This document shows, one piece after another, positions 24,972-44,997 of a DNA stretch of 64,000 nucleotides. The stretch lies in contig JAQXNX010000022.1 of assembly GCA_029098225.1 (NCBI GenBank), forward strand, positions 1 through 64,000, in the 5' to 3' direction. A model generated the notes under the pieces. The model saw nothing but the letters and a program-made list of their open reading frames with translations, was not told where the DNA came from and made no database searches. Every line of letters starts with the position of its first letter. The stretch's first letter is position 1. This DNA comes from Spirochaetales bacterium. Its GTDB lineage: Bacteria > Spirochaetota > Spirochaetia > Treponematales > Treponemataceae. The translations under genes and the position numbers were made by a program.

Positions 24972-25385
24972 ATGAAACGACTTATAGCTTTGATTATGGT
25001 TTTGTTCGCTGGAACAATGTTATTTGCGGCTACAGGTTCTTATGTAGTTGAGTCTATTGTTGGTAATGTTACTTATGAAAAAGCTCCCGGTCAATTTGAA
25101 AAGGTAACTGTTGGACAGGAACTTTCAGCTTCTACAGTTTTGAATACTGGACTTAATTCAAGCGTTGTTATTAATTACGATGGAAAATCTATCACAATTA
25201 AGGCAAAGCAAAAAGGAAATGTAGAATCACTTTGTATTAATGCAAACCCTTCAAAAGGTGGACTTAAGAGACAGGTAATTACAAAAGCAGATGCTGAAGA
25301 TACTGCTGATGGAAAACGCGAAGGTGTTGCAACTGCTTCTTCTCGTGCTTCTGATGCAAAAGCAGATTATACATGGGATGAGTAA
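24972..25385 (+). CDS. Small secreted FecR-like protein
   Basis: The 137-residue product has a signal peptide cleaved after LFAA (about residue 20). A single FecR-like beta domain follows: VESIVGNVTYEKAPGQ, KVTVGQELSASTVLNTG, and SVVINYDGKSITIKAKQ. In FecR this fold sits in the periplasm. The family is often found beside CHASE2 cyclases in spirochaetes and other bacteria, as here. The C-terminal 40 residues are polar and probably disordered. It is followed by a strong terminator and then, 16 bases on, the cyclase start, so some readthrough or a second promoter must serve the cyclase. A periplasmic partner of the cyclase is a fair inference. Confidence 0.75.
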   Translation: MKRLIALIMVLFAGTMLFAATGSYVVESIVGNVTYEKAPGQFEKVTVGQELSASTVLNTGLNSSVVINYDGKSITIKAKQKGNVESLCINANPSKGGLKRQVITKADAEDTADGKREGVATASSRASDAKADYTWDE

Positions 25386-25423
25386 CATTCGTTAAAAGCC
25401 TTGCAAGCTTATTTTGAGCTTAG

Positions 25424-25457
25424 CAGGGGCTGCCAGAAGGCAGCCCCTTTTTTATTT
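25424..25457 (+). terminator. Terminator/attenuator between the FecR-like gene and the cyclase
   Basis: A nine-pair GC-rich stem (25426-25434 with 25439-25447, loop AGAA) is followed by a long T-run. It ends only about 16 bases before the cyclase ATG, so it could set the ratio of the two products. Confidence 0.85.
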
Positions 25458-25472
25458 TTGAGAGTCAATCAT

Positions 25473-28181
25473 ATGAAAAAACAAAATCTTATTTCTCTTT
25501 TAATACCATTTATTTCGGTGGCAGTGTGTTCACTTCTTTTATTATCTTCTCTTGATAAAAAAACAGCTGATTTTTTTCAGCGCCCTTTAAAAGCAACAGA
25601 GGAAAGTCCGCGGGTTATTATGATTAATGTTGATGATGATGCCGTTGATCAGATTGGTACCTGGCCATTTTCTCGAACTGTTTATTCGCAGATGCTTACA
25701 AATCTTAAGGAGCTTGGTGTCCGGGCGGCTGTATTCGATTTAAGCTTTCTTGATAAAAGTCAGGCAACTGTTGATGCAGATTATGTTAGAGAAGCTTTGC
25801 CGGGATATGTAAATAATTATTTTTCTCTTTTGAATGATAGTGCTGCCTGGGCATTAGAATCTGTTTCGGACGGCAGTTCAGATATTAATGAGGTTTATGA
25901 AGATTTCGATTCTGAATCAAAGAAATATGAACTTGAACTGAATACTGCAATTTCGCATGCAATTGTATCAGCTGATGATGTTCTGGCTTCCTCATTAAAA
26001 GATTTTAATAATGCTTTCCTTACGCTTACCTTTGAAAAAAATATAACTCCTTCGGATGAAGAAAAAGAATTTTTGCAGAATTACGTTGCTTTAAAAAATG
26101 TTGATGTAAAAGATGATTCAAAGGTAAAAGAGTATACTGGAGTTCAGCCTGCTTTGTATGAATTCCTTACACAGGCAAAATCTGCCGGCTTTGTAAATGC
26201 TGATCCAGATTCTGATGGATACCTTCGCCGGCTTTATCTTATTGTAAAATATGACGGAAAGTATTACGCACAGCTTGTGTTCCGTCCTATTCTTGATTTG
26301 CTTGGAAATCCTACTGTAGAAATTACAAAGAATTACATTAAAGCTGGTGATCTTAAAATTCCGCTTGCTCAAGATGGTTCTGTAATAATTAAATATCCAA
26401 AGAAAAAATACAAAGATTATACAAATACTATTTCTCTTGCAAACATTTATTTTCTTTCTGCTATGGAAAATACTTATATTCAAAATCTTTCCATTATGAA
26501 TGACAGCGGCTTCTTTGAAGATCTTGATCCGGATGAAAATCCTTACGATCTTTATGAAACTGCAGAATATATTCGTGGAGAACTTGTCTATGGAGAATCT
26601 ATAGAAGATGGTATTTCTTATGATGAATATTTAAAATATAGAAATATGTATTACGATGCTTCCAGAGCTTTCCTTACAGACGAAACAGAAGATTATTTCT
26701 GTGCGCTTTATGAAGAAGATGAAGATTATGTCCGCGAGTTATTTAAAGAGACAAAAACAGCGTTTACAAAATTTATGGAATCTCATGAGCGAAGTGCTGC
26801 AAAAGTAAAGGATGCAATTTGTATTATTGGAACAAATGCTTCGAGTACTACAGATTATGGTTTGAATCAGTATGATGAACATTATGCAAATCCTGGCGTG
26901 CATTATACTCTTGCAAATATGATTCTTTCCCGCGATTTTGTTGACGATTCTCCGCTTATAATTTCTGTTATAATTGCGCTTATTATTTGTCTTGGATACA
27001 GCTTTATTGCAAAAAAAATAAAGAGAACAGGAACTCAGATTGTACTAGGAATTGCTTCGGTCGCTGTAACGGCTGGAGTTCTGCTTTTATTCTTTATAAT
27101 TACAAGACATTATATTGGAGCAGTAGTTCCTGTAGTTTCTGTTTTTGTTTCGTTTGTTGCAACTACAATTGTAGGCTTTGTTACTGCAAATCATGATAAA
27201 AAATTTATTACAAATGCATTCAGCCAGTGCCTTTCAAAAGAAGTTGTAAACGAAATTGTTGCTAATCCTTCTTCCTTTAAGCTTGGTGGTCAGCGTATTC
27301 AGATGACAGCCATGTTTACAGATATTCAGAAATTTTCGGGCTTTAGTGAATTACTTACGGCAGGTCAGCTGGTTGCTCTTTTAAATTATTATCTTACTAA
27401 AATGTCTGATATTATTATGGATGAACGCGGAACTGTAGATAAGTATGAAGGAGACGCAATTATTGCCCTGGTTGGTGCTCCTGTGCAGATGAAAGATCAT
27501 GCAGAAAGAGCCTGTGCAGCTGCAATAAAAATGAAGGCTGCAGAAGTTCTTATGAATGAAGGTATTGAACAGATTGCTTCCGGAGAAAAGCCTGCCGGAA
27601 TGGATGAAGAGCTTTATGAAGCCTTTAAGATTATGGTTAAAAATGACCGCCGCTTATTTACAAGAATCGGTTTAAATTCCGGAGAAATGATTGCAGGGTA
27701 TATGGGCTCAGAAAATAAAAAGAATTACACTATGATGGGTAATAATGTAAACCTTGCTTCCCGACTTGAAGGCGTTAATAAACAGTATTGTACGGGCGGA
27801 ATTATGATTAGTGCGGCGACACGCGAGCTTATTGGCGATCGTTTTATAGTACGTAGTCTTGATAGAGTTCGTGTTGTAAACGTAAATACTCCTATCCGAC
27901 TTTATGAACTTATATGTGAGCGTGAAGGAGCTTCTGCAGAAACCGTAAGTTATTATGAGCGATGGGAAAAGGCCTTTGCAGATTTTGAAGTCAGACAATA
28001 TGATAAAGCTTTGGAACAGTTTAAGCAGCTTTATGGTGAAAAGCCGGATGATAAGGTAGCTGCATATTATATAATGATTACAGAAAAATTCTTTATAAAA
28101 GGAAAATACCCTGTAGAACAGGATGACATAGGTGTAGCCTATAATCCAGAAGATGGAGTATTTAAGTTAATGCAGAAATAG
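25473..28181 (+). CDS. Adenylate cyclase with CHASE2 sensor
   Basis: Starting at ATG 25473 (an upstream in-frame ATG lies across the terminator), the 902-residue protein has an N-terminal TM (about 6-25) and a periplasmic CHASE2 domain beginning PRVIMINVDDDAVDQIGTWP. Three membrane helices (about 487-590) and a class III cyclase domain follow. The cyclase has both metal aspartates (FTDIQKFSGF and KYEGDAIIALVG), the lysine and threonine expected for ATP (KYEGD, YTMMGNNVNLASRLE) and the transition-state Asn/Arg. A TPR-like helical end follows. It would convert an envelope signal to cAMP. It pairs with the FecR-like gene. Confidence 0.92.
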   Translation: MKKQNLISLLIPFISVAVCSLLLLSSLDKKTADFFQRPLKATEESPRVIMINVDDDAVDQIGTWPFSRTVYSQMLTNLKELGVRAAVFDLSFLDKSQATVDADYVREALPGYVNNYFSLLNDSAAWALESVSDGSSDINEVYEDFDSESKKYELELNTAISHAIVSADDVLASSLKDFNNAFLTLTFEKNITPSDEEKEFLQNYVALKNVDVKDDSKVKEYTGVQPALYEFLTQAKSAGFVNADPDSDGYLRRLYLIVKYDGKYYAQLVFRPILDLLGNPTVEITKNYIKAGDLKIPLAQDGSVIIKYPKKKYKDYTNTISLANIYFLSAMENTYIQNLSIMNDSGFFEDLDPDENPYDLYETAEYIRGELVYGESIEDGISYDEYLKYRNMYYDASRAFLTDETEDYFCALYEEDEDYVRELFKETKTAFTKFMESHERSAAKVKDAICIIGTNASSTTDYGLNQYDEHYANPGVHYTLANMILSRDFVDDSPLIISVIIALIICLGYSFIAKKIKRTGTQIVLGIASVAVTAGVLLLFFIITRHYIGAVVPVVSVFVSFVATTIVGFVTANHDKKFITNAFSQCLSKEVVNEIVANPSSFKLGGQRIQMTAMFTDIQKFSGFSELLTAGQLVALLNYYLTKMSDIIMDERGTVDKYEGDAIIALVGAPVQMKDHAERACAAAIKMKAAEVLMNEGIEQIASGEKPAGMDEELYEAFKIMVKNDRRLFTRIGLNSGEMIAGYMGSENKKNYTMMGNNVNLASRLEGVNKQYCTGGIMISAATRELIGDRFIVRSLDRVRVVNVNTPIRLYELICEREGASAETVSYYERWEKAFADFEVRQYDKALEQFKQLYGEKPDDKVAAYYIMITEKFFIKGKYPVEQDDIGVAYNPEDGVFKLMQK

Positions 28182-29989: not shown

Positions 29990-30018
29990 TAGACTAAAAT
30001 ATTGTTTTCTTATATAAT
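29990..30018 (+). promoter_or_regulatory. Probable promoter of the giant-lipoprotein operon
   Basis: TAGACT (29990-29995) and a perfect TATAAT (30013-30018) are 17 bases apart, with the first ATG 24 bases on. It is the only good promoter-like sequence before the four tightly packed genes that follow. Confidence 0.5.
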
Positions 30019-30041: not shown

Positions 30042-31967
30042 ATGAAAAAAGTGTTATACGCAATGCTTGCATTCTGTGTGAGTGCAGGACTTTTTGCGAC
30101 CGAAATTACAATAAAAGTAACTCCGACAGTAATGTTTCCTTTTCTATCTGGCGAAGCAAAGAAATATGATATAGCTGGTGGTGGAGCATTTTTAGATCCT
30201 GGAATAAATCTTTTTGGTTTTTTAAATGTTGGCCCAGAGTTTGGAGTTATAGTTCTTCCAAAAAATAATTCAAAACAACTTGCAGAAGGAATTGATAAGC
30301 AGGTTACATTTATTCCTGTAGGACTTCAGGCTGGTGCTTTTTATGATATTTTTTCGCGTGTAGAAGCAGGTGGCGGAATAGCATTCGGAGCTTATGGAGC
30401 AACTACAGATAAAAAATGGCATTATGCGCCATGGTATAGAGTCTATGCTGATGTTGCTTTTAAAATCAATACAAAGGTTTCTCTTGGACTTGATGTTTCA
30501 TGGTTTAACTGTCAGAACACAACCTGGGTAGGGAATCCTGGTGCTGCAGGAATAACGGCAGGTATTGTATTAAAATTTAAAATTGATACAGAAAAATCTT
30601 CGGGAAACGTTAATGCTTCTATCGAAAACGGAGAAAATGTTTTCCCGCTTCTTTATACACTTTACAAGTCTGAACCTTTTGGAGCAATTACAATTAATAA
30701 TGACGAAACTGGTGATATAAGAAATGTTATAGTAAAATTCCGCGCCGAAGGTTATACAGCTTCAGAGATGGAATGCGGAAGAATAAATATGATAAGAAAG
30801 CACCGCAGCGAACAGCTTTCTCTTTGTGCAGATTTTAATGATAAAATTCTCCGCTTTTCTGAATCGGGAAAAATTTCAGGTGAAATTGTAATTGAATATT
30901 CACTTTTGGGAGACAAGCGTGTTTCTGTAGTTCCTGTAACAATTTCTGTTTACGGAAGAAATACATTACGCTGGTTTGATCCTGCGATGGTTGCAAGTTT
31001 TGTTTATCCAAAATCAGAAGAAGTGCTTGAAATTTCAAAATATTCTGTAGGAATTGCAAGAAGCCATGCGCGTTCCGGATTGAATAATAATCTTCAGTTT
31101 TCTATGTATTTGTTTGAAGCTATGCGTCTTGCAGGAATTACCTGCGAAGAAAATTCAGATACTCCTTATAATTCATTTCATATTAATCCAGAGGTTTTGG
31201 ATTATCTGCAGTATCCTTATCAGACACTTTCTTACCGTTCAGGAGATAAAGATGATATAGGAATCCTTTTTTCTTCTATGCTTGAATCTGTTGATATTCC
31301 GGCTGCTTTTATTCCTCTGGAAAATGATTTTATAGTTGCGGCCTGTCTTGGCGATGATTCAAATTCATTAAGAAATATGTTTAACGGTGATGAAAGAATT
31401 CTTAGCGTAGATAATAAAATCTGGCTTCCTCTTTCTATGTCAGAAATTGAAAATGGATATATGTCCAGCTGGGCAAAGGCTGTAAGAGAAATTAATTATT
31501 TACTTGAAAATGATGAAGATGTTGATTTTATAATTCTTTCGGATGCCTGGATGAGTTATCCTACAGCAGGCTTTTCTTCGAATGAAACAAATGTAAAGCT
31601 TCCTGCAGAAAAAAATCTTTATGCTGCCGGCGAAAATGTGTTGAATCAGTATATTAATCAGGAATATGGTCCACAGATTGCAAATCTTCAGGCTCGCATA
31701 AAATCTGAAGGAGCTTCTGTTACTCTTTATAATCAGCTTGGTATGCTTTATGTTCGTGCAGGAATGTATGACAATGCTGTTTCAGTTTATGAAATTTCTG
31801 CAAAGCTTGGCTCAATTCCTGCAATGAATAACCTTGGAAATATCTGCATCTTGCAGAAGAAATATAAAACTGCTAAGAGCTGGTACGAAAAGGTTCTTGC
31901 AATTGATCCAACAAATGAGACTGCTTTGAGAAACTTGGAAAGAATAGCCACTGAACTGGACTATTAG
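30042..31967 (+). CDS. Secreted barrel/transglutaminase-like (inactive)/TPR protein
   Basis: The 641-residue protein has a signal peptide (cleaved near LFAT, residue 19-20). An outer-membrane-barrel-like N-terminal region (20-180) has alternating strands such as GPEFGVIVLP and SLGLDVSWF. A central domain clearly paralogous to the next gene follows, and TPR repeats close the protein (about 560-635; MYDNAVSVYEISAKLGSIPA and YKTAKSWYEKVLAIDP). In the transglutaminase-like core the catalytic cysteine is Lys403 (SGDKDD), the histidine is Asp429, and the acidic residue is Ser, so it should be a pseudoenzyme. First gene of the operon; eight bases separate it from the paralogue. Confidence 0.7.
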   Translation: MKKVLYAMLAFCVSAGLFATEITIKVTPTVMFPFLSGEAKKYDIAGGGAFLDPGINLFGFLNVGPEFGVIVLPKNNSKQLAEGIDKQVTFIPVGLQAGAFYDIFSRVEAGGGIAFGAYGATTDKKWHYAPWYRVYADVAFKINTKVSLGLDVSWFNCQNTTWVGNPGAAGITAGIVLKFKIDTEKSSGNVNASIENGENVFPLLYTLYKSEPFGAITINNDETGDIRNVIVKFRAEGYTASEMECGRINMIRKHRSEQLSLCADFNDKILRFSESGKISGEIVIEYSLLGDKRVSVVPVTISVYGRNTLRWFDPAMVASFVYPKSEEVLEISKYSVGIARSHARSGLNNNLQFSMYLFEAMRLAGITCEENSDTPYNSFHINPEVLDYLQYPYQTLSYRSGDKDDIGILFSSMLESVDIPAAFIPLENDFIVAACLGDDSNSLRNMFNGDERILSVDNKIWLPLSMSEIENGYMSSWAKAVREINYLLENDEDVDFIILSDAWMSYPTAGFSSNETNVKLPAEKNLYAAGENVLNQYINQEYGPQIANLQARIKSEGASVTLYNQLGMLYVRAGMYDNAVSVYEISAKLGSIPAMNNLGNICILQKKYKTAKSWYEKVLAIDPTNETALRNLERIATELDY

Positions 31968-31975
31968 GAGAGAAT

Positions 31976-34114
31976 GTGTCGGGAAAGGTTGCCAGAAAAC
32001 TAAGAAAGAAACAATTCTCCATTTTGAATAAGCGTTCTAAGCGAATTATAGCTTTGTGTGCCGGGGTTGTTTTATTTTCTGCAATTCCATTAAGTGCACA
32101 AGAAAAATCAGAAAAATCTAAAGGACAGTTCCTTTTAAGCTTGTATCCAAAATTTACAAAACCATTTGGCGAAGCTCACCAGATTCAGTATGGAATTGGC
32201 GGCGGTTTAAATTTTACCTGGCGTCCTGTAAAGGTAATAAATGTTTTTGCCCAGGGAGAATATCTTTCTATGGCAATGCCAGGAATTGATCCTATAGCTA
32301 TTTTAAATGGTTCTATTGGCGCGGGCTATCATTTTGATTTTTCTGATAGAATTGGCCTGGACTGTAATGTTGATTTAGGACTTTATAATGCAAAGGCTTC
32401 TGAAAGAAGCATAACAGGACTTTCCGGTGGAGTTTCGATTGTTTTTTCTTACAGATTTAATCCGGTAGTTTCTGCAACGGTTAGTGCTTCGGGAACGCAT
32501 TTTGCTTCTGCTTCGCGTCCGCTTATGGTTGTTAATGCGGGAATTGCTCCCGGAGTTACATTTAATATTTCAGAACTCTTCAATAATTCAACAAATCTTG
32601 CCATGAATTCTGTTGAGCTTGCACCAGTATTCCCGGCTCTTTATTCATGGTATGAAAATAATTCATTCGGAAAGGTTCAGATTACAAATAACGAGGAATA
32701 CGCAATAACCGATGTTTCCATTTCTTTTTTTCAGCCTCAGTATATGGCACATGAAAAGGAATGTGTAAAAATAAAAAAAATTGATAAGGGTGAAACCATA
32801 GAAGCAGATCTGCTTGCATTCTTTGATGAGCAGATGCTTGAGCTTACAGAAAGGACAGATACAAACAGTTTGGTAATTGTAAATTATTCCTGTCTTGGAA
32901 GAAAGCGGACTCAAAGCTTTATGCTGGATGTACCTGTTTATGGACGTAACAATATGTCCTGGGATGATGACCGTCGTGCTGCAGTTTTTGTTTCTTCTAA
33001 GGATCCTGCCGCAATGCAGTTTGCAAAATATGTAGCCAGTCTTGTCCGCGAAAATCAGAGAACAGAAGTTCCTATGAATATTCAATATGCGCTTGGAATT
33101 TTTGAAGCATTGAATCAGTTTGGTATTAACTATGTTGTAGACCCTTCTTCGGCATTCGAAGACAATGTCGGAACCTCTTCAATTGACTTTCTTCAGTTCC
33201 CGTATCAGACACTTATGTATAAAGGCGGTGACTGTGATGACCTTTCTATTCTTTTCTGTTCACTTTTTGAAGCGGTAGGAATTCGTACGGCATTTATTAC
33301 AGTTCCTGGTCATATTTTTATGGCCTTTGATTCTGGCTTGAATGAACAAGAGGCTGATGAAAAACTTAAATATCTTTATAACTATATTGTTATTGATGAT
33401 GAAGTTTGGGTTCCTCTCGAAATTACAATGACCGATGAAGGTTTTTATAAGGCCTATCGTTATGGTTCAAGAGAGTGGACAAGAGCTTATTCTCAGGGAA
33501 CAGCAGCTATTTACAAAATGGAAGATTCCTGGAAAATCTATCCGCCAATAAGTGTTCCTGGCGCAGCTGCAAAATTCAGTATGCCGGAAGAAACAGACAT
33601 AACTAATGCTTTTGCAATGAGTATAGAAGAATACAGTTTTGGCGAAATAAGAAATCTTTTGCAATTCCGTCCTGTTAAAATTGCAGAAAAACAGGAAGAG
33701 CAGAAGATTGTTGAATTTGAGCTAAATGAAGAAAATCCATTTTCAGATCTTGCGTTGCGTGAAGTTCTTGCTCTTGCAGGCGTTGGCGATGCTATAGTTC
33801 CAATAGGGATTCGCGAGGAAGAGCTTGAAGATGATGAAGATGAAGAACTGGAAGATTTGTTCTCTTTTGATTCGGATGATTCAACACATCCTGTAACTCA
33901 TAAAACTGTTGCTGTAAAATCGAACGAAACTGTAAATAATCACGAGGCTCTTGCAAATAGCGCAGTGGCTGCAAATAGCGCGCCGGTAACTGCTGACATT
34001 ACAAAAGCCGGAGGAGTTTCTGCTGGTACTGTTGCTGCTATTTCTGCACCATTTATTATCGCAGCTACTGCAGCAGGAATTATTATTTATAAAAAGAAAA
34101 AAGAAGGAGAGTAA
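31976..34114 (+). CDS. Secreted transglutaminase-like protein with C-terminal membrane anchor
   Basis: The GTG start at 31976 follows AGGAG. The 712-residue product has a basic 23-residue lead, signal peptide to about residue 41 (PLSAQ), a barrel-like region (45-190), an Ig-like domain, and a transglutaminase-like core with Cys420 (GGDCDDLSILFC), His446 (VPGHIFMAF) and Glu482 (WVPLEIT) in place. An acidic linker (about 610-630) and an Ala-rich segment lead to a C-terminal TM ending IIIYKKKKEGE. Compared with its upstream paralogue it keeps the catalytic residues but has an anchor in place of TPRs. It probably acts in the periplasm on a protein or peptidoglycan; the substrate is not known, though the lipoprotein next door is an obvious guess. 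Confidence 0.72.
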   Translation: MSGKVARKLRKKQFSILNKRSKRIIALCAGVVLFSAIPLSAQEKSEKSKGQFLLSLYPKFTKPFGEAHQIQYGIGGGLNFTWRPVKVINVFAQGEYLSMAMPGIDPIAILNGSIGAGYHFDFSDRIGLDCNVDLGLYNAKASERSITGLSGGVSIVFSYRFNPVVSATVSASGTHFASASRPLMVVNAGIAPGVTFNISELFNNSTNLAMNSVELAPVFPALYSWYENNSFGKVQITNNEEYAITDVSISFFQPQYMAHEKECVKIKKIDKGETIEADLLAFFDEQMLELTERTDTNSLVIVNYSCLGRKRTQSFMLDVPVYGRNNMSWDDDRRAAVFVSSKDPAAMQFAKYVASLVRENQRTEVPMNIQYALGIFEALNQFGINYVVDPSSAFEDNVGTSSIDFLQFPYQTLMYKGGDCDDLSILFCSLFEAVGIRTAFITVPGHIFMAFDSGLNEQEADEKLKYLYNYIVIDDEVWVPLEITMTDEGFYKAYRYGSREWTRAYSQGTAAIYKMEDSWKIYPPISVPGAAAKFSMPEETDITNAFAMSIEEYSFGEIRNLLQFRPVKIAEKQEEQKIVEFELNEENPFSDLALREVLALAGVGDAIVPIGIREEELEDDEDEELEDLFSFDSDDSTHPVTHKTVAVKSNETVNNHEALANSAVAANSAPVTADITKAGGVSAGTVAAISAPFIIAATAAGIIIYKKKKEGE

Positions 34115-34119
34115 TCTGA

Positions 34120-37100
34120 ATGAAAAAGCTGTTTACAGGTTTATTATCCATAGTATTATTAGGAATGATTTCCAGCCTCTTTTTTTCATGCGACACATGG
34201 ATGAAAGATGATGATTTTTATTCTGACATAGAGAGAGATGTAAAAATTGCTAATGCCGAGCCTATAAGTGTATTTGTTCGTTATGCAATGACAAGACAGG
34301 GAAAAACTAATCCTGAAGGCTATACAACTTTTAAGGTTGGAATTCCTCATGAAATATCTGCTACAACAGAAACCGAATACGGCTTTGTAAAATGGGCAGC
34401 CTTTTCTACAAGTTTCCTTTCAACAAGTAATCAAAATAGCGATAAACTTTTTGTTGATGAGAATGATTATAATACAAGACTCCTTCCGCATGAACTTTCA
34501 AGCTCTATAGTTTTATTTGATAATCCGCGCAGTCCAAATACAAATGCAACAGTAAACGAATCTAGAGGAGATGTTTTTATTGTTCCAATTGTAACAGAAC
34601 GGCCAAGAGTAAACCTTACTATTCCTGCTCGCGGAAGTAATGATGTTGTACGCAATATGTCTGTACGAATCAGCTTTACAAAGCCAATGGATCCGTCTTC
34701 ATTCAGAGAAGAAGGAGTTGTTTCTATTACAGAAGGTTCCATTACAATTATTGATGGTGAAATGGAAATTGCCAGTAAAGATATTTCTAACCTTTTTGAA
34801 GAACCGATTTTGAGCAGAAATGGAAAAATGCTTACTTTAAAATTTACGACAGATGGATTAAGAGTAGGTTACGATTCAAAATCTACAGTAAATATTTCAA
34901 TTTCCAAGGAAGTAAAAGATATTTACGGCTTCTCTATGGTTAATGATGAAACAATCAGTTTTACAGCCGGAAGCGGTATGGACACAATTGCTCCTCGTAT
35001 TACACAGCTGACTGCTGGACGTGGCTTTGAATTTGGACAGTTCCAGGGAATGTATAATTCAAATTTAGTAATGCAGAATTTGAACAATACCTTAACAAAG
35101 TTTAAGCTTACAATGGGATCTAATGATGCAGCATCAAAGCCTCTCTCTGATTCTTTCTTTAATTCTGCAAATGGTATTTACCAGGCGTTTATTAAAAACC
35201 GTGTAAGCGATAAGGTTTCTCTCCGCGTTTATGCCGAAGACCTTACCGGAGAAAATTCAACCGACCATCTTGAAAATGATGTTGCCATGGTAGCAATCCG
35301 ATCTAAGGCTCTTTTCAATGCAGATGGAACGGCAGCCGCTTCTTCTGCAGACAATACTCTTTCTATGGCTTATATTCCTCAGGGTGATATTGCAGAAATT
35401 GGAAGAGCAGTTAATAAGACATATCAGAGACTTGTTCAGGATGAAAGGGCAAGACTTACAGCAAACGGAGACAATTCTTTTGATGATGCTGCTTCTGGTG
35501 TAGGATGTCTTTTTGTATATGATATGGCTTCTATTAATGTTCCGGATGGTTTAATTCAGATTGATGTTGCAGCTATAGATAATATTTCTAACAACGGCTA
35601 CACAGAATATACAGATTATACAGAGCAGTTAGGAAACGGATGGGCTTCTGTATTCGTTGTTAAAGATACAACTCCTCCAGCAAAACTTGGTTCTGGAAGA
35701 GTAAGCTTTACTCGTACCGATAATCCTGCAGTTATAGATCTTGATGATTTCTATAATGCAGTTGAATATGAAAAGCTTAAGGTTTCTGTTTCTGGTTCTG
35801 CCATTACTGATTATGGCGATACACGTCTCCGTTCTGCAAAAGTATGGTGGATTGTTAAACCAATTGACGATTCAGTTACAGCCGAAAATGTAGGAGAAGT
35901 CTTTGAATCTGCTGCTGATTCAGAATGGAAGGAAGCAGTTTCTGCAAATACCTTCCAGAACTTTACAGCTCCTTCAGAAGACAATATTGAAGGTCAGCGT
36001 TTTGCTTATGCCCTTAAAGATGATATGGGCAATATTGCTGCCGATATTCTTCCGGAAAGAATTAAGTTTGACTGTACAGATCCTGTTGTTGGTTCGCTTG
36101 AATGGATTGCTGATGAAGGTTCTGCAATTGGTGTTACAACCGGAAACGTACTTAATAATCAGACTCTGGTAATTCCAGTAAGCGAAGAAACTTCTGGAAT
36201 CGACAAAATAGAACTTTCTGTAAAGCATGTTGATTCTTTAGGAAATGAAGAACAGGCTTATGATTCTCCATTTGGAGGAAGTTTTGCTGTTACTGTAATA
36301 AAAACAAACGGAACTACACAACAGCTTTCTTCTTCAGATTATTCAATTGATACTCAAAACACAAAAGTCCTCAAATTTACAAATCCGGCAACAGACTGGC
36401 AAACAATCAAGATTAAGGGACTTAAGATTGCAGATTCAGCAACAGAAGGTAATTACAAAATAAGAGTAACTGTAAAAGACGCTGCTCTTAATGAAACAAC
36501 TTCTGCTCAGCCAATTGAATTAAGCAATGACTCTACAAATCCTGTTATAGAAAAGATTATTGTTCCAAATATTAATAAAGGAATTATTGCCGGAGGAACT
36601 ACAGATACTTACTGGGCAGATTATTCAAAGCTTGATACAAGCTCTACAATTCCAAAGACAAATATTTATGTTACATTCAACGAAACTAACTCTGGAGCAA
36701 ATGTATTTGACTTTACCGATTCAACAATAAATCTTACATCTGCTACAAAGATTTATAAAGCAAAACTAAATGCTGCAGGAGATGGTTTTGAACCTGATGG
36801 TGAAGAACTTGCAGGAACTATTTCTGGAAAAGTTCTTACACTTACTTCTTATAATGACATAATGCGAATAAAGGGAAGCTCAGTAACAGTTATTATTACA
36901 AATGTTCAGCTTGCACGAATTACTTCTACTTCTTCAGAAAAGTCTGGAATTAAACTTGTAATTTCTGATAGAGCAACAAACGCTTCTGCAGAAGTAACTT
37001 CTATGAATAGTGGAAGTAATATTACTGCCGCATCTCTTCCTCTTACATTTACAGAATTCAGCTATGATACTGAAACTCCTTCTATATCTTTAAACAGTAT

Positions 37101-40100
37101 AGCGGATAGGGGAACTGATGCAAACAGTGTTGCTGCTGATTCCGGCTTTACAAACGAAACTTATATTGATGCCGATTTTAAACTCCAGGAAACTTATTCC
37201 GGAGTAACTGCACTTACGTTAGACGGTGCAGTATTTGATGAAACAACAACAATCCAGGCTTACCTCAACGGTTGGGTAACAATTGTTAATGCAGGAGATA
37301 TTACTTCAGCTACTTCTACAGTAAGATTTAACAATAAGATAATTGTAGGTTCTGACATATCTGTTAATGTCTGCAATATTAAGCTTCTTCAGGAAAGTGG
37401 TGCTTCGCCTTCTGTAAGTGTAGAAGATGGTTTAAAGACCGTAAAACTTACTGCAACAAGCCTTGGTGGAATTACAAGTACAGTAAATAATTCTTCAACA
37501 AAGACGATTACTTACGACTCTTTAAGACCTCGCTGGAATGGAAACGGACTTTATACAACTACTCAGTCAACTTCTTCATTTACTGTTAATCCGAATTATG
37601 TATGGCCACATCCAAAGGCTCCTGATGTTGAAGCTTCGCAAAGAGCTTACGGCTTAAAGGATGAAGTAGAAGGAAATACCGCTGGAGATCTTTACTTCTA
37701 TGTAGCTCAAGATGGCGCATTTTATGCTGCTCCAATACGTATAGAAGCAGATGTTGAAGAATTAAACAGAAATTCAAATTCAATTTATATAGAAAATGTT
37801 TCCGGCTCAACTTATGAAGGTGTCGGAACTTCTGCAAGTAATTCAGGTCCATTTGCATATCACGGTCTTACACCTGCTGTCGGTGCAAATTGTAAATTTA
37901 ATACCTATGTAGTTGATAAAGCAGGTAATAAGTCAGATGTAATTACATTCCATATTATAATCGATTCGATTATGCAGAACGATTCAGAAGATTTGAACAG
38001 CTATATAGAAATTGAAGCACCAGACGGTTTTGAAGCTTCTAATATGCATAAGAATCCTGTAAGAAGTTCTACTCTTCAGAATACGAATAATGGTTATGAA
38101 TATACAGTAAGAGACGATTTAAAACCATTTTATATAAGTACTTATGATTATGTACTTAAGAAGTTTGATGCTAATCCATATAAGATAAGAATCAAGCTTG
38201 GTAACGGTACTGGAAGTTATGGAAAAGCTGGAGAAACAACAAGTTCTGCTCCAATAGAAAAATACTCGGTTACTCACTTGTATGATAACTTTAGCAGTAC
38301 ATATCATAGTGTAACAGGAAATTTAACAGCTTCTTATCTTACAGGAGAATTTATACCTGCGGCACCTGGTTCTGGAAGTAACGGAAAAGCTACCTGGATT
38401 GATTATAAAACTGGCGAAACTAGTCCTGATGGAACAGATATAACAAGTGCTGTAGATTCAAATGGAGATATTGTAATTACTCTTCCAAACAGAAATTGTC
38501 CTCCACTTTCACTCTGGCTTAAAGACGGTTGTGGCAATGAAGGATATGTTCTTATAAGACCAGGCCTGGCTGCTGTTCTGGGAAAGTCTAGTCTTGCAAA
38601 TTATGAGCATGTTGGCTGGATAATTGATGGCGAGGTTCAGCAAGGCACAAAGTCTATGAGCTATAGTGGAGTTACCAAGAAGACATTTGATGGTGTTCTT
38701 TATTACAAGGGAACTCCAGTTCTTTCTATTGATAATTCTGATTCTGCTCTCTTCAATAGTTCAGATACAGGATATACCTTGAGAACAAAGCTTATTTCCT
38801 GGTCCGGTGCCGGTGCAACAGGTCCTGAGAAAAATGATTTTGAAGCAGATACTGGAGCATGGACTTCTATTAAAGCAACTTCTCAATCTTCGTTCAGGTT
38901 AGATTTAAATCTTCCTGCACCTTCTCCAAATACTGCTGCTTCAGAATTGTGGTATATTATGGAAGATACGGTAGGTAACTGCAGTATTACAAAGCTTACA
39001 GACGGCACTGCAACAAAATGGATGTACGATAACGAAGGCCCTGTTTCTGCTGTAAATTCAAGTGAATATGTTAATACAATTACATCTGACGGGCCTGCAG
39101 ATTCAAATGGTAATCCGACAGGTATAAACTATTATAGTGCAAACTCTACGGTAACTTATAAGATTACCGATGAAGGTTCTGGTATTTACAACGACGGCGA
39201 TAGAACTTATTCAGATTCTGAGCGTCAGCAGGAAATTACAAAATCTTCATATGATATTTCATCAAGGCTTCCAGATTCTTCTATGAAGATAACTATTTCT
39301 GGTATTGAAGATTTTGTTGGTAATACTTCATCTATGGGATTTACAAAGAATAATGTAAGTAACTGGTTAAAGCAGAGTGTTCCTGAACTGGACCTTTCTA
39401 CTTCTAACCTTAATAATTCTCAATTAACTGCTAAAATAGAAGCTGGCGATCATAATTCTGGTATGGATAACTGGAATGACTGGGGAATCAGCCGTTCATA
39501 TACAGCTTCTGATAAAACTTACAAAATTACAGCTACTAAATATCGCTATAAGATGTATGTAAAACTTAATGCAAAATGGCATGAAAATGATTCAAGCTCT
39601 TATACAACTTCGGAATCTAAAGATTTACTTGGCTGGATTGTAAGAACAACTCCTCTTTCTGATACAGCTTCTAATCCTGCCGACAAATTCAAGTCTTTCT
39701 ATAGTGCTTCTCTTGTTGGCAGCGAAATTACAAGTATATCTGATAATAAATATTTATTCGAAAAAACTGATGATACAGAATGGAATTCTTTTGCACCAGT
39801 AACTTATTTCTATCCTGTAAATAAAGCCGGACTTATTTGTAAAACTCCTGTTATTGTAAGATTTGAAGCTAATGTTTCTCCGTCAATAAAAACAGATTCA
39901 ATTTCGTATCCGAATGTCGGTTCTTATGTAAATGGTAATGAAAAGATTAACTACTTAAAGGCAACCTCTAAATTTAAATTTACAACAAACGATAATACAC
40001 TTTCAAAATGCGATATAATGATTGGCGGCCAGTATAGCAATGATAAGTGGACTTATACAAATTCTTCTACAGGTTTGGAGAAGAATGGTTATGAATATAC

Positions 40101-43100
40101 TCTTGATTTATCTAAACTTGGAACTAATATTTCTGGTAAAGAACTTTGGGTAAAACTGTATACAGAAACTGAATCAACGACATATCGTATTTTTGGACCT
40201 TCTGGTGCAAATAACTGGACATATGATGCAACTGCTCCAGATTTTGCATTAGCTGCTTCTAATCCTGTTACAAAAGTTGAAAGCACCGGTGAACTCTGGC
40301 AAAATACATCAACTGATGTATATTACTTTAGCAGTAACAATGTTAAGGTTTCGTTCGATTATTCTGCAACTGATATTATTAAGTTTGAAGCAAAAATAGA
40401 AAGAGAAGACGATACTTCAACTCCAGATTTTACAGACATTACTTCTTCATTTGATAAAACAAATAAAACTTATACACTTAACGGCTTAGAAGAAGGAAAG
40501 CTATATAAAATAACCTTCCGTGCAATAGATAAGGCAGAAAATCCAACAACTTTAACAGCTTTAAAACTTCAGAAGGATACAACAGCTCCAACGGGAACAG
40601 TTTCTCACACACTTGCAAAGGCTTCTTCTGGAGCTCCTGTAGAAAACACACATTACAACATAAAAACTGGTACAGAAGACGGGGCAGAAAAACAGACAAT
40701 TTACTTTAGAAACTCTGGAACAGACAGATTAACTACTGTTACAATCAGCGTTTCTTCTCCTTCAGATTCCGGCTCTGGTTTAAACAGCGTATATTATACT
40801 ATAGATGGTGGAACAGAAACTGCTCTTACAGGCTCTTATAATCTGCCTGTAAGTCTTTCAGAAGGTTTGGAAGCAACCTATAAGATTTATGTAAAAGATA
40901 ATCTTGGCAATTCTAAACTATTAAAGACTTATGTTGTAAATGGAAATGGTCCTGCAGGAACTGTTTCTTTCACACAGATTACAGGAACAAAACTTTCTGC
41001 CGGCACTGCAGAAGATACAGATACAATTTATTACAATGCTTCAAATATAACCGAAGTTCAGCTGGCAGTAAGTGGTGTTCAGGATTCCCGTGGAAATACA
41101 AATGCAAGTACAGAAAATGCGGTTAAGATTTTCTATCAGAAGGGAAGTGCAACTCCAGTTGATATTTCTGGAACTTTAAAGCTGCCTTGCCCTGCAGGCG
41201 ATACGAATAATACTGCAACTTATACAGTTTATGCAGAAGATTCTCTTGGCAATAAGAAGACTCTCAGAAAATATGTTCTTAACGGAAAACTTCCTTCTGG
41301 AGCTGTAACTTATTCAGCAGAGGCTGGAACTGCAATAGATGGCACAGATTCTTCTATTATATATTTTAAGTCTACAGGTTCAGATGCAGTTGCAAAAATT
41401 AATCTGACATCAACAGTAAAGGATGCAGAAGAAAATAATGCGGCTTTGTATTATCAGATAGATGATGGTGCTTTAGTTCCTATGACAGGAACAGAACTTC
41501 CTTGTCCTGGTTCATCAGTATCTTACGAGACAACCTATAAGATTTACGCAAAAGATTCTATTGGAAATACTTCTGCCGTACTTGCAACCTTTACTCTTAA
41601 GGGAGCTGCTCCAACAGGTTCTATAGATTCTTATGTTCTTAAGAAAGATTCAGCTACAGCAGTTGAAGTAAGCGATTCTGCGCCTGGAGATTATATTGCC
41701 AGCGTAACACAAGATTCAAATAATGTTATTACGGCAGTTTCATTTATTTATAATCCGGCTAAAGTAAATAAAATTACTATTACACCAGGAACTATTACGG
41801 ATTGCGGTTCTGGTTCATCTATCGTAATGACAATTGATGGTAATTACGAAATGGATGGCAGCAATATAAAGACTTACTCAACTTCTTCAGCTTTTGATAT
41901 TGTACTTGGCTCTGACTGGACAACTAAGAAGGTATATAGAATTTTTGTAAGGGATGCAGCCGGAAATGAGACCCGCTTAATTAAATATGAATTTAAAGCA
42001 CATGGCTCTGCGCCTGTAGTAGAAAAAGAAAATGATAAGATTGGTTATACAGGACTTGCTCAGGTTCCAACTTATCCTGGAACTTATAGTGCAGGTAATA
42101 AATCTAACTGGATAAAGTCTTTTGCAAATAACGATTCTGACTACTCGGTTAGTCCTACACCTGTTGAACTCAAATCGGGTAAAATCAAGGTAATTACATA
42201 TAATGACGGCGTTCCAAATTCTAATACATCTGATGTTACTGATTATGTTATAAGACAGGTTGATGCAAATACAAAATTTACTCTGCCGGTAAAGAAATCT
42301 TCATTACCTTCTAATAATTTGTATTATGGAATTACTTATGGTTCTATAAAAGAATCTGATGTTGAATGGAATGGTCCAGTGGATGTTTCTGGTGGAAAGC
42401 TTACAAATATTTCTCTTGATATGAGTAAGCTTTCTAAGCTCTATACCTTTATATTTGTATGGTATAAGGATGAACTTGGAAATATTTGTGTTCACAATCT
42501 TGTTTTCTATAGTACAGAAGGCTATGCTCAAAACTGGTGGACAAAAGCTGACTATGCAGGAGATGTAAATACAGGAGATTCTTTTGTTACTCCAGACATT
42601 TCAATTGACTGCAGAATGGCCGGTGGTGCTTTTGGAAGTGCATGGAATTCTCTTGTCGGAGCGGCTGGAACAACTGCTTCAACAGTAAGCTCAGTTGCAG
42701 TTACTTACACAGAACCTGTTACAAGCTCTGTATATAATATAGTAAGGGAAATAACAGTTCCTTTGTCTTCTGTAGCTAAGTCAGCATCTGTGGCTTCGGC
42801 AAAAGCTGAAATTATGGAAGTTCCTGTTGAGGTAAATATATCAGCAGCAAGTTCTGTTACATCAGCTCCTGTTGCGGTTGATCTTGCTGCAGAAACTGAA
42901 GCTGTAACTTATGCTGTGCCTTCTGCTCCTTCAGTTAAAAAAGCATCGGTCAAATCTTCGCGCTCTTCAAAAACTATAGCTTTGGATGTTCAAGAGATTG
43001 AGACTGCTCAGGTTCAAAGTTCAGCTTTGGTACAAAATATTGTAGAAAATGAAGCTCAGACAGAAACTATGAATTTTGCCGGAGCTGTTACAAAAGTAAT

Positions 43101-43188
43101 TGCAGCATTTATCTGCGCATTACTTCTTAGCATCGGGGGATTTATAATATTCAGACGAAATAAGGTAAATAGAAATGAAGAAAATTAA
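34120..43188 (+). CDS. Giant Ig-repeat lipoprotein with C-terminal transmembrane anchor
   Basis: The 3022-residue product has a lipoprotein signal with a relaxed lipobox LFFSC (Cys24). A Big_5/SbsA-like Ig domain at about 155-290 contains VRISFTKPMDPSSF. A long series of roughly 100-residue Ig-like repeats follows, each opening with a D-x-x-x-P motif (DTTPPAK, CTDPVVG, STNPVIE, TETPSIS, ATAPDFA, TTAPTGT and others; at least eleven). The last few are most alike and end in a YxIYVKDNLGN-type strand. A Ser/Ala/Val stalk (about 2840-2985) leads to a TM helix and FRRNKVNR tail. It overlaps the AAA gene by 14 bases. Lipid at one end and a membrane helix at the other is unusual. I expect a surface or periplasm-spanning fibre. 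Confidence 0.8.
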   Translation: MKKLFTGLLSIVLLGMISSLFFSCDTWMKDDDFYSDIERDVKIANAEPISVFVRYAMTRQGKTNPEGYTTFKVGIPHEISATTETEYGFVKWAAFSTSFLSTSNQNSDKLFVDENDYNTRLLPHELSSSIVLFDNPRSPNTNATVNESRGDVFIVPIVTERPRVNLTIPARGSNDVVRNMSVRISFTKPMDPSSFREEGVVSITEGSITIIDGEMEIASKDISNLFEEPILSRNGKMLTLKFTTDGLRVGYDSKSTVNISISKEVKDIYGFSMVNDETISFTAGSGMDTIAPRITQLTAGRGFEFGQFQGMYNSNLVMQNLNNTLTKFKLTMGSNDAASKPLSDSFFNSANGIYQAFIKNRVSDKVSLRVYAEDLTGENSTDHLENDVAMVAIRSKALFNADGTAAASSADNTLSMAYIPQGDIAEIGRAVNKTYQRLVQDERARLTANGDNSFDDAASGVGCLFVYDMASINVPDGLIQIDVAAIDNISNNGYTEYTDYTEQLGNGWASVFVVKDTTPPAKLGSGRVSFTRTDNPAVIDLDDFYNAVEYEKLKVSVSGSAITDYGDTRLRSAKVWWIVKPIDDSVTAENVGEVFESAADSEWKEAVSANTFQNFTAPSEDNIEGQRFAYALKDDMGNIAADILPERIKFDCTDPVVGSLEWIADEGSAIGVTTGNVLNNQTLVIPVSEETSGIDKIELSVKHVDSLGNEEQAYDSPFGGSFAVTVIKTNGTTQQLSSSDYSIDTQNTKVLKFTNPATDWQTIKIKGLKIADSATEGNYKIRVTVKDAALNETTSAQPIELSNDSTNPVIEKIIVPNINKGIIAGGTTDTYWADYSKLDTSSTIPKTNIYVTFNETNSGANVFDFTDSTINLTSATKIYKAKLNAAGDGFEPDGEELAGTISGKVLTLTSYNDIMRIKGSSVTVIITNVQLARITSTSSEKSGIKLVISDRATNASAEVTSMNSGSNITAASLPLTFTEFSYDTETPSISLNSIADRGTDANSVAADSGFTNETYIDADFKLQETYSGVTALTLDGAVFDETTTIQAYLNGWVTIVNAGDITSATSTVRFNNKIIVGSDISVNVCNIKLLQESGASPSVSVEDGLKTVKLTATSLGGITSTVNNSSTKTITYDSLRPRWNGNGLYTTTQSTSSFTVNPNYVWPHPKAPDVEASQRAYGLKDEVEGNTAGDLYFYVAQDGAFYAAPIRIEADVEELNRNSNSIYIENVSGSTYEGVGTSASNSGPFAYHGLTPAVGANCKFNTYVVDKAGNKSDVITFHIIIDSIMQNDSEDLNSYIEIEAPDGFEASNMHKNPVRSSTLQNTNNGYEYTVRDDLKPFYISTYDYVLKKFDANPYKIRIKLGNGTGSYGKAGETTSSAPIEKYSVTHLYDNFSSTYHSVTGNLTASYLTGEFIPAAPGSGSNGKATWIDYKTGETSPDGTDITSAVDSNGDIVITLPNRNCPPLSLWLKDGCGNEGYVLIRPGLAAVLGKSSLANYEHVGWIIDGEVQQGTKSMSYSGVTKKTFDGVLYYKGTPVLSIDNSDSALFNSSDTGYTLRTKLISWSGAGATGPEKNDFEADTGAWTSIKATSQSSFRLDLNLPAPSPNTAASELWYIMEDTVGNCSITKLTDGTATKWMYDNEGPVSAVNSSEYVNTITSDGPADSNGNPTGINYYSANSTVTYKITDEGSGIYNDGDRTYSDSERQQEITKSSYDISSRLPDSSMKITISGIEDFVGNTSSMGFTKNNVSNWLKQSVPELDLSTSNLNNSQLTAKIEAGDHNSGMDNWNDWGISRSYTASDKTYKITATKYRYKMYVKLNAKWHENDSSSYTTSESKDLLGWIVRTTPLSDTASNPADKFKSFYSASLVGSEITSISDNKYLFEKTDDTEWNSFAPVTYFYPVNKAGLICKTPVIVRFEANVSPSIKTDSISYPNVGSYVNGNEKINYLKATSKFKFTTNDNTLSKCDIMIGGQYSNDKWTYTNSSTGLEKNGYEYTLDLSKLGTNISGKELWVKLYTETESTTYRIFGPSGANNWTYDATAPDFALAASNPVTKVESTGELWQNTSTDVYYFSSNNVKVSFDYSATDIIKFEAKIEREDDTSTPDFTDITSSFDKTNKTYTLNGLEEGKLYKITFRAIDKAENPTTLTALKLQKDTTAPTGTVSHTLAKASSGAPVENTHYNIKTGTEDGAEKQTIYFRNSGTDRLTTVTISVSSPSDSGSGLNSVYYTIDGGTETALTGSYNLPVSLSEGLEATYKIYVKDNLGNSKLLKTYVVNGNGPAGTVSFTQITGTKLSAGTAEDTDTIYYNASNITEVQLAVSGVQDSRGNTNASTENAVKIFYQKGSATPVDISGTLKLPCPAGDTNNTATYTVYAEDSLGNKKTLRKYVLNGKLPSGAVTYSAEAGTAIDGTDSSIIYFKSTGSDAVAKINLTSTVKDAEENNAALYYQIDDGALVPMTGTELPCPGSSVSYETTYKIYAKDSIGNTSAVLATFTLKGAAPTGSIDSYVLKKDSATAVEVSDSAPGDYIASVTQDSNNVITAVSFIYNPAKVNKITITPGTITDCGSGSSIVMTIDGNYEMDGSNIKTYSTSSAFDIVLGSDWTTKKVYRIFVRDAAGNETRLIKYEFKAHGSAPVVEKENDKIGYTGLAQVPTYPGTYSAGNKSNWIKSFANNDSDYSVSPTPVELKSGKIKVITYNDGVPNSNTSDVTDYVIRQVDANTKFTLPVKKSSLPSNNLYYGITYGSIKESDVEWNGPVDVSGGKLTNISLDMSKLSKLYTFIFVWYKDELGNICVHNLVFYSTEGYAQNWWTKADYAGDVNTGDSFVTPDISIDCRMAGGAFGSAWNSLVGAAGTTASTVSSVAVTYTEPVTSSVYNIVREITVPLSSVAKSASVASAKAEIMEVPVEVNISAASSVTSAPVAVDLAAETEAVTYAVPSAPSVKKASVKSSRSSKTIALDVQEIETAQVQSSALVQNIVENEAQTETMNFAGAVTKVIAAFICALLLSIGGFIIFRRNKVNRNEEN

Positions 43189-44329
43189 AATTCGCTTTTC
43201 TGTAATTTTTGTGGTGCTGGCTTTTTTTGGGGTTGCAGCATATTTTGCGTATGATTTTTTTAAATATCGTATAGATATTGAAAAAGTTTCTTATGCGGAT
43301 TTCTGGAAAGCAGTTGAATATAATGATGTAAGCACCGTAAAATTTGATGGAGATAAAATTCATTTTACAACAAATCTTACCGGAATGCCTTTTATAACGG
43401 ATAATCCTCATTCTCCGATTCTTGAAGAAGAACTTATGAAGCGTGGAATTGAAGTAACTGTTGTAAAAGATGGTGCAGAAATATTTTCGCTTATTTTGGA
43501 TGTAATATTTTATGTATTTTTCTTTGGTGTAATTATTTTTGCATTCAGAAAATTTATTAGTCCGAATACATTTAAGGTTGTTCATAAAACTGGCGTTAAG
43601 TTTGATGATGTTGTCGGTATGGAAAAACTTAAGCGGGATATGGTGCAGGTTATGGAAATAATGAAGAATCCTGCAGAGTTTGCAAAAAAAGGAATTCGCA
43701 TGCCTAAGGGAATTCTTCTGGAAGGTGAGCCTGGTAACGGAAAAACTCTTTTTGCAAAGGCTCTTGCTGGAGAAGCCAGAATAAATTTTATTCCTGCAAA
43801 AGCAACTGATTTTGAAAGTATGTTTATGGCAATCGGTCCTATGAAGGTAAAACTTCTTTTTAGAAAAGCCCGTCGTCGTGCTCCATGTATTGTATTTATA
43901 GATGAATTTGATGGTATTGGTACAATAAGAAATTACAGCGGCTCTGCTCTGGAAACAGAAAATACCCGCATTGTTACTGCACTTTTAAATGAACTTGATG
44001 GTTTTGAAGCTTCGAATGGTGTGCTTGTAATTGCTGCTACAAACAGTATAAAAGCTCTGGATCCGGCGCTTATAAGACCAGGTCGTTTTGATTCAAAATT
44101 AACTGTTCCGTATCCTGATGAGGCTGCACGTGCTAAGCTTATAGAAATGTATTCCCGCGGAAAAAAACGTTCTTCCGATTGTTCAACAGAAGCTCTTGTA
44201 CGTTTATTTAACGGCTATTCCTGTGCTAAAATTGAAAGCATTTTAAACGGGGCTGCCCTTTGTGCAAGACAGAATAATCGTGAAGAGATTATTATGGATG
44301 ATATAAAAGAAGCTGTTTCTGAATGTTAA
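43175..44329 (+). CDS. Membrane AAA ATPase resembling FtsH but lacking the peptidase domain
   Basis: The 384-residue protein has TM1 at about 9-28, an FtsH-type extracytoplasmic domain (VSYADFWKAVEYNDVSTVKF), TM2 at about 107-128, and an AAA module starting FDDVVGMEKLKRDM. Walker A GEPGNGKT is at 184-191, Walker B FIDEFDG has Asp243/Glu244, and arginine fingers in LIRPGRFD lie at about 301 and 304. The helical lid follows, and the chain then stops at EAVSEC where FtsH would continue into a zinc protease. No HEXXH is present. It could unfold or extract membrane-anchored substrates without degrading them, and the anchored proteins encoded just upstream are the natural candidates (inference). 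It overlaps the lipoprotein gene by 14 bases. Confidence 0.85.
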   Translation: MKKIKIRFSVIFVVLAFFGVAAYFAYDFFKYRIDIEKVSYADFWKAVEYNDVSTVKFDGDKIHFTTNLTGMPFITDNPHSPILEEELMKRGIEVTVVKDGAEIFSLILDVIFYVFFFGVIIFAFRKFISPNTFKVVHKTGVKFDDVVGMEKLKRDMVQVMEIMKNPAEFAKKGIRMPKGILLEGEPGNGKTLFAKALAGEARINFIPAKATDFESMFMAIGPMKVKLLFRKARRRAPCIVFIDEFDGIGTIRNYSGSALETENTRIVTALLNELDGFEASNGVLVIAATNSIKALDPALIRPGRFDSKLTVPYPDEAARAKLIEMYSRGKKRSSDCSTEALVRLFNGYSCAKIESILNGAALCARQNNREEIIMDDIKEAVSEC

Positions 44330-44332
44330 TAT

Positions 44333-44361
44333 TTGCAATTTTTTTATACAATTGATAAAAT
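44333..44361 (+). promoter_or_regulatory. Promoter of the small outer-membrane protein gene
   Basis: TTGCAA (44333-44338) and TAAAAT (44356-44361) are 17 bases apart, starting four bases after the AAA gene stop. A GGGAG ribosome site follows, so the next gene can be expressed separately from the operon. Confidence 0.5.
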
Positions 44362-44391
44362 CTACGAACAATAATTTTTAGGGAGAAATTT

Positions 44392-44997
44392 ATGCGAAAA
44401 TCATTAAAAGCATTTTTTGCTGCTTTTATATTAGCTTTTGCTGTTCCAGCTTCTGTTTCTGCATTTGAATGGTCAGAGTGCTGGTGTAATTATGGCGGTG
44501 GAATTGAAAAGCATGATTTTTTAATTAACGTCGATGGTGGTATCTGGTATGATGTATTTGGATATTCACAATTTAATGATTTCTGGTTTATTCCGCCAGT
44601 TATGGTAGATGTTCAGTTTGCACAGCCAATCTGGAAGCTTCCATTTACTTTTGGTGGATATGCAGGTTTTCGTTCATATGGATATAGCTATATTGACCAT
44701 CATGAATGGATAGATGGTAAGTATACACCAATTTACCATTCTACATCTTTCTGGGGAATGTTCGTTGGAGCAGAATCAGCTTATCATATTCAGCTTCCGC
44801 CAGAGCATCTTGATGTTTATGTAATTACAAGACTTGGTGCAACCATTCCTTTTATAACTTCACGTTATTGGGATGCTTCTGAATGCTTTAATGCTGGTGG
44901 TGCACTCGGAGCAAACTGGTTCTTTAATGATGTTATAGGCGTGAATTTGGAATTTGGTTATCCAATGACAAAATTTGGATTATCATTAAAATTCTAA
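44392..44997 (+). CDS. Small outer-membrane beta-barrel-like protein
   Basis: The 201-residue product has a signal peptide ending SVSAFEWSE (about residue 24). A glycine- and aromatic-rich sequence of alternating strands follows (VDGGIWYDVFGYSQF, FTFGGYAGFRSYGY, WGMFVGAESAYHI) and ends in GLSLKF with a terminal phenylalanine, the usual signal for BamA-mediated outer-membrane insertion. Its size suits an eight-strand barrel. Two close cysteines (CWC) lie at the mature N-terminus. It has its own promoter and a terminator, and follows the giant-lipoprotein operon, whose first two products also start with barrel-like regions. Function unknown. Confidence 0.7.
   Translation: MRKSLKAFFAAFILAFAVPASVSAFEWSECWCNYGGGIEKHDFLINVDGGIWYDVFGYSQFNDFWFIPPVMVDVQFAQPIWKLPFTFGGYAGFRSYGYSYIDHHEWIDGKYTPIYHSTSFWGMFVGAESAYHIQLPPEHLDVYVITRLGATIPFITSRYWDASECFNAGGALGANWFFNDVIGVNLEFGYPMTKFGLSLKF

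Follow-up and report, generated by a model that had tools for sequence, protein, structure and literature searches.

A recurrent spirochaete gene module combining a barrel-type transglutaminase-like protein, its predicted inactive twin and a giant Ig-like lipoprotein

Five consecutive genes (P1 to P5) occupy positions 30042-44997 of the window, the 64,000-nucleotide stretch of DNA that was analysed, and they raise the question of which of them belong together and what they might do at the cell envelope. An earlier note on this DNA had proposed an envelope operon of a non-catalytic paralogue, an active transglutaminase-like enzyme, a large surface fibre and a membrane ATPase to move it, followed by a barrel-like protein. 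The five plus-strand genes and their spacing are borne out by the open reading frame coordinates.

29990-30018, + strand: candidate promoter before P1, TAGACT-N17-TATAAT, 10/12, weak
30042-31967, + strand: P1, 641 aa, pseudo-transglutaminase; barrel, Ig and transglutaminase-like (TG) parts by homology to P2, C-terminal TPRs, catalytic Cys and His lost
31976-34114, + strand: P2, 712 aa, GTG start; predicted OmpA-like eight-strand barrel, Ig domain, transglutaminase-like domain, disordered linker, C-terminal hydrophobic helix and KKKK tail
34120-43188, + strand: P3, 3022 aa, giant Ig-like lipoprotein; lipobox, post-Cys motif, Big_5 (9.9e-7) and OmpL47-type (6.2e-9) matches
43175-44329, + strand: P4, 384 aa, FtsH-like ATPase
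44392-44997, + strand: P5, 201 aa, small barrel protein

Gaps of 8, 5 and 62 bases separate P1/P2, P2/P3 and P4/P5, respectively, and P3 and P4 overlap by 14 bases. The promoter before P1, previously described as good, is present as a motif but is not distinctive, as 48 promoter-like sites were found at this stringency against 54.9 +/- 6.2 expected, which is not above chance. TATAAT-like hexamers occur in most of the regions upstream of P1 in the relatives compared, which share no common layout, and no Rfam element was detected in the window or upstream of P1. On the opposite strand, sulP lies between P1 and a pair of genes at 24972-28181 that is considered below. Elsewhere in the window (56901-63727) a penicillin-binding protein 1C-like gene adjoins a bacterial alpha-2-macroglobulin gene, a known pairing.

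P4 consists of an FtsH extracellular domain and an AAA module and ends after the AAA lid, before the M41 protease, with a score of 270 of 600 bits against FtsH_fam. HExxH is absent from 23 of 23 distinct P4 homologues, while Walker A and B, the arginine finger and the pore loop are kept in nearly all of them, in agreement with its former description as a protease-less FtsH-like ATPase. It is restricted to the genus, with none seen in other families of the order, and is found alongside a normal FtsH. Membership of P4 and P5 in the module was rejected on synteny and co-occurrence. P4 occurs in 21 of the 35 genus genomes, in 7/9 with the module versus 14/26 without it (Fisher p=0.26); seven of them carry P4 together with the module, and in every one the two are on different contigs. 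Its homologues adjoin sulP, ftsH or unrelated genes. P5 shows no association with the module either (1/9 genomes with it versus 8/26 without, p=0.39). In some relatives (L044; L093) sulP and P4 are direct divergent neighbours and, because of this arrangement, P1-P2-P3 are most simply read as an insertion: in this lineage they apparently landed between sulP and the P4 gene.

The remaining three genes behave differently. Homologues of P1, P2 and P3 co-occur and adjoin one another in Treponema and in related genera, and the three genes are neighbours in those Treponema relatives whose contigs are long enough. The relatives with a name include Treponema bryantii strains NK4A124 and B25. The neighbourhood comparison that the earlier note had called for therefore upholds its grouping for these three genes and not for P4 and P5, which are neither associated nor linked. 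A search of spirochaete-phylum genomes and plasmids located the TG core in 65 of 392 genomes, representing 39 genera; the plasmid search returned just two fragmentary matches, to other proteins. At barrel-type loci, a strict lipobox test places a lipoprotein gene after the enzyme gene in 17 of 23 genera, compared with 14% in the background (p=1e-10), and four more genera that fail the lipobox regular expression look positive by eye. The junctions between the two genes at these loci mostly fall between -25 and +15 bases. Judged from gene order and co-occurrence, P1-P2-P3 is a real, recurrent module.

Several loci depart from this layout. One 4.06 Mb single-contig genome contains five separate P1-P2 loci (L111-L115), several of them behind large Ig-like or InlB-type proteins. 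Another locus, L119 (G054:C6), has an 8256-residue open frame, partly masked, with one copy of the TG core. A second subfamily (L149, L158, L159, L162-L165 and L173) has a long N-terminus, which in most members puts the TG core past residue 500, and usually lacks a lipoprotein gene downstream. Some paralogous P2 genes have a FecR gene after them in place of a lipoprotein gene.

BLAST shows P1 and P2 to be homologous (E=1.5e-50), and their profile alignment runs end to end, with the reservation that the P2 alignment includes some P1 rows and is hence not independent. The catalytic positions of P2 and its C-terminal helix are as follows.

33233-33235, + strand: codon of catalytic Cys420, invariant in 45/45 P2-type rows
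33311-33313, + strand: codon of catalytic His446, invariant in P2-type rows and absent from 37/37 P1-type rows
33419-33421, + strand: codon of Glu482, third residue of the triad, invariant in P2-type rows
34034-34090, + strand: C-terminal hydrophobic helix before the KKKK tail, kept in P2 of the genus, g33 and g87

In an alignment of relatives, some rows of which come from near-identical genomes, Cys, His and Glu are all kept in the 45 P2-type rows, while His is missing from every P1-type row and Cys is still present in 2 of the 37. The third residue of the triad is an aspartate in classical transglutaminases. These alignments identify P1 and P2 as a duplicated pair in which P1 is consistently the dead duplicate, and the previous assignments of P1 as a pseudoenzyme paralogue and of P2 as a transglutaminase-like enzyme with a predicted intact Cys-His-Glu triad both hold. 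Pfam matches to P2 are weak: Transglut_core (PF01841) reaches 18.8 bits, below the curated cut-off of 23, and there is a weak OMP_b-brl match.

An AlphaFold2 model of mature P2 (mean pLDDT 80.7, with 449 residues at or above 90) shows, in order, eight long strands, a beta-sandwich, a mixed domain in which a helix starts at the catalytic Cys, and a disordered linker. The strands, with pLDDT mostly above 89, superimpose on NspA, OmpA and OmpW with Z ~18-19 and an rmsd of ~2 A over ~150 residues, and the N-terminus is accordingly modelled as a closed eight-strand OmpA-like barrel. By analogy with OmpA topology, P2 would be positioned in the outer membrane, and the same analogy predicts the side on which its enzyme domain would lie. 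The sandwich (Ig domain) matches the C-terminal barrel of human TG2 with Z 9.9. The TG core modelled alone (pLDDT 91.9) matches the putative Parabacteroides protease 3kd4 (Z 9.7), PNGase (Z 9.2), a Cytophaga cysteine protease (Z 8.8) and L. pneumophila LapG (Z 8.4, 139-142 of 181 residues); these values of 8.4-9.7 are modest, that for LapG lying near the level at which chance arrangements arise, and back a fold, not an activity. When the PDB was searched by sequence, the TG core gave no significant match.

P3 combines a predicted signal peptide with a lipobox cysteine, as expected of a bacterial lipoprotein, and its earlier description as a giant Ig lipoprotein is supported by the lipobox, Big_5 and an OmpL47-like domain.

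34189-34191, + strand: codon of the lipidated Cys24 of P3, lipobox LFFS^C24, conserved in orthologues
43096-43152, + strand: C-terminal hydrophobic helix of P3 before the basic tail RRNKVNR, in 12/12 complete P3 of the genus and 0/2 in g33

The Treponema P3 proteins span 2600-5000 residues and share the lipobox and the conserved post-Cys motif C.xWM..D....IExEVkxANA, and all 12 complete copies have the C-terminal helix with its basic tail. A rule of matched C-terminal helices on P2 and P3 was dropped, as the P3 helix is missing from both g33 copies, and sortase or exosortase was rejected as an explanation of these helices, since neither PF04203 nor PF09721 was found in the 12 genomes tested. 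P3 shows neither a LapA-like retention module nor a T1SS signal. The membrane leaflet that would hold P3 is assigned, like the orientation of P2, from OmpA topology. Across genera, the partner lipoproteins contain Ig-like domains (Big_5, Big_7, Big_13, PKD, fn3 or InlB-type) together with variable extra modules (FGE-sulfatase, Lcl_C, FG-GAP); the post-Cys segment is conserved among them and the remainder varies widely. Two examples that end in FGE-sulfatase or Lcl_C are found at L154 8980-10278 and L168 7151-8740; both folds are known from variable ligand-binding proteins.

The pair of genes beyond sulP was absent from the set proposed earlier.

24972-25385, + strand: FecR-like small secreted protein, 137 aa, C-terminal end ...TASSRASDAKADYTWDE, a recurrent partner
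25476-28181, + strand: CHASE2 and class III adenylate/guanylate cyclase, 901 aa, Pfam CHASE2 4.6e-28 and Guanylate_cyc 1.2e-18

In five genomes (L129, L131, L175, L176 and L178) these genes come immediately after P3 in the same orientation, and in five further genomes they are adjacent to the module but inverted; the cyclase adjoins the module in at least ten. In other genomes FecR-like homologues come after P3 or after the P1-P2 pair, and the FecR/cyclase pair is linked as well to a second P1-P2 pair of shorter proteins, which in most cases lies immediately upstream. FecR is found in 11 of 12 genus genomes with transglutaminase genes versus 1 of 23 without (p=3.3e-7). From this linkage, the FecR-like protein and the CHASE2 cyclase are identified as real partners of the module. 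The FecR-like protein additionally gives a weak match to the NCBIfam model retention_LapA (6.4e-7).

A C-terminal tail of the form RAS...W(D/E)E, observed in the window at 25330-25385 and at L108-L110, L176-L178 and L139-L161, ends 16 of 20 FecR-like proteins, 34 of 134 transglutaminase-family proteins and 5 of 929 other nearby open reading frames. Two non-homologous partners seem to carry one shared C-terminal tag.

The genomes compared display a conserved gene content, a phylum-wide coupling of enzyme and lipoprotein and a strict division into active and dead copies, as far as these can be read from sequence. The preferred reading is a five-gene envelope module of P1, P2, P3, the FecR-like periplasmic protein and the CHASE2 class III cyclase. 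P2 would be held in the outer membrane by its OmpA-like barrel with the cysteine-enzyme domain in the periplasm, and would act on the co-produced lipoprotein P3, most likely as a LapG-type cysteine protease, so that P3 might be trimmed, released or otherwise controlled in its surface retention. P1, alike in fold but without the catalytic residues, might bind the same partner or P2 itself and regulate or recruit, while FecR and the cyclase might convey the state of the envelope or adhesin into the cytoplasm through a cyclic nucleotide signal. Action of P2 on its lipoprotein is suggested by the conservation of the catalytic residues, the outer-membrane anchor and the coupling to one lipoprotein; the structural resemblances of the TG part and the LapG/DvhG precedent favour proteolysis, and for P1, FecR and the cyclase the suggested roles would follow from co-conservation. 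The reading as a whole, in which the P2 enzyme domain processes or anchors its partner lipoprotein with P1 as cofactor and FecR/cyclase as sensor, is tentative and is given somewhat less than an even chance.

Docking could account for some of the same observations. P1 and P2 might mainly dock or display the lipoprotein at the outer membrane (compare RcsF with OMP barrels, and Slam), with the enzyme secondary; each P2 gene has its own coupled lipoprotein, in which the post-Cys segment is conserved amid wide variation, and P1 is retained despite its catalytic death. Pure docking would not need a triad, however, and that of P2 is strictly conserved across the phylum, so this reading is unlikely. 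P2 could instead be a true cross-linker that links P3 by covalent bonds with itself, with P1/P2 or with the envelope without sortase. The pairing of Ig and TG domains resembles eukaryotic TG2/TG3/FXIII and, with sortase and exosortase absent from the 12 genomes tested, no other known route of covalent anchoring was found, but in structure the TG part comes closest to putative proteases and PNGase, not to cross-linkers, and cross-linking is considered rather improbable.

Two further explanations carry very little weight. The P3/P4 overlap in this genome and the well kept ATPase motifs of P4 are what a four- or five-gene export operon would offer, with the FtsH-like ATPase moving a surface fibre as the earlier note supposed; the occurrence of P4 without the module, its lack of linkage in 7/7 genomes and the equal lack of association of P5 make this exceedingly improbable. 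An anti-phage function is hinted at by a match of P2 residues 233-452 to the start of NCBIfam NF058533, 'anti-phage protein ProA' (E=6.1e-10), for which no paper was found in an open-access literature search. The match scores 37.2 bits against a curated cut-off of 1500, P1 and P2 have no match in PADLOC or PHROGs, and the predicted architecture is secreted and envelope-localised, leaving this function very unlikely.

The module could also represent a covalent or proteolytic, sortase-independent system of surface-protein control that is particular to spirochaetes and has no descent from Lap, in which a barrel-TG protein with its pseudoenzyme twin would act on a lipoprotein fibre of up to 5000 residues and be coupled to a cyclic-nucleotide sensor; this wider proposal is possible, if doubtful.

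Spirochaetes display many lipoproteins, the processing and surface retention of which are poorly understood, and the phylum-wide pairing of a putative outer-membrane-anchored cysteine enzyme with its own lipoprotein, a dead twin and a sensor would offer a testable handle on lipoprotein processing and retention. The open-access literature search returned nothing relevant on a spirochaete transglutaminase/Ig-lipoprotein system, and the barrel-Ig-transglutaminase architecture is apparently undescribed, as far as the open literature searched shows.

Individual components have recognizable relatives. P4 shares the extracellular domain and AAA module of FtsH but, as a genus-restricted paralogue beside the normal FtsH, lacks M41. 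P2 begins with an eight-strand barrel like OmpA, NspA and OmpW, but the barrel is followed by Ig-TG and not by a peptidoglycan-binding domain. As in animal TG2/TG3/FXIII, the TG domain of P2 adjoins an Ig-like beta-sandwich of the C-terminal-barrel type (Z 9.9), whereas in P2 the Ig domain precedes the TG domain, an outer-membrane barrel is present and the sequence similarity is weak. The leptospiral Lig proteins are, like P3, spirochaete surface lipoproteins of many Ig-like domains; P3 is longer than they are, with a hydrophobic helix at its C-terminus, and no coupled transglutaminase gene is described for Lig in the portions consulted of the papers found (e.g. PMC7821625).

A close parallel is with the Lap and Dvh systems, in whose c-di-GMP-controlled pathways the transglutaminase-like proteases LapG and DvhG cleave large adhesins (PMC3032545, PMC13090378). 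Both those systems and the module combine a secreted transglutaminase-fold cysteine enzyme with a very large surface protein and a nucleotide second-messenger protein nearby, and the model of P2 points, modestly, to a transglutaminase-like cysteine-peptidase fold shared with LapG (Z 8.4). The differences are considerable. P2 carries an outer-membrane barrel and an Ig domain in the same chain, has no match to PF06035 (BTLCP), the weak Transglut_core being its sole TG-type Pfam hit, and has an invariant Cys-His-Glu triad in place of Cys-His-Asp. P3 is a Sec/lipobox lipoprotein and not a T1SS adhesin, with no retention-module match. The sensor is FecR with a CHASE2 class III cyclase, no LapD/DvhD c-di-GMP receptor being seen beside the module in the window, and a conserved pseudoenzyme twin is present. 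Because P2 lacks BTLCP sequence similarity and P3 is a lipoprotein and not a T1SS adhesin, the module is judged not to be a Lap system; it may follow the same logic.
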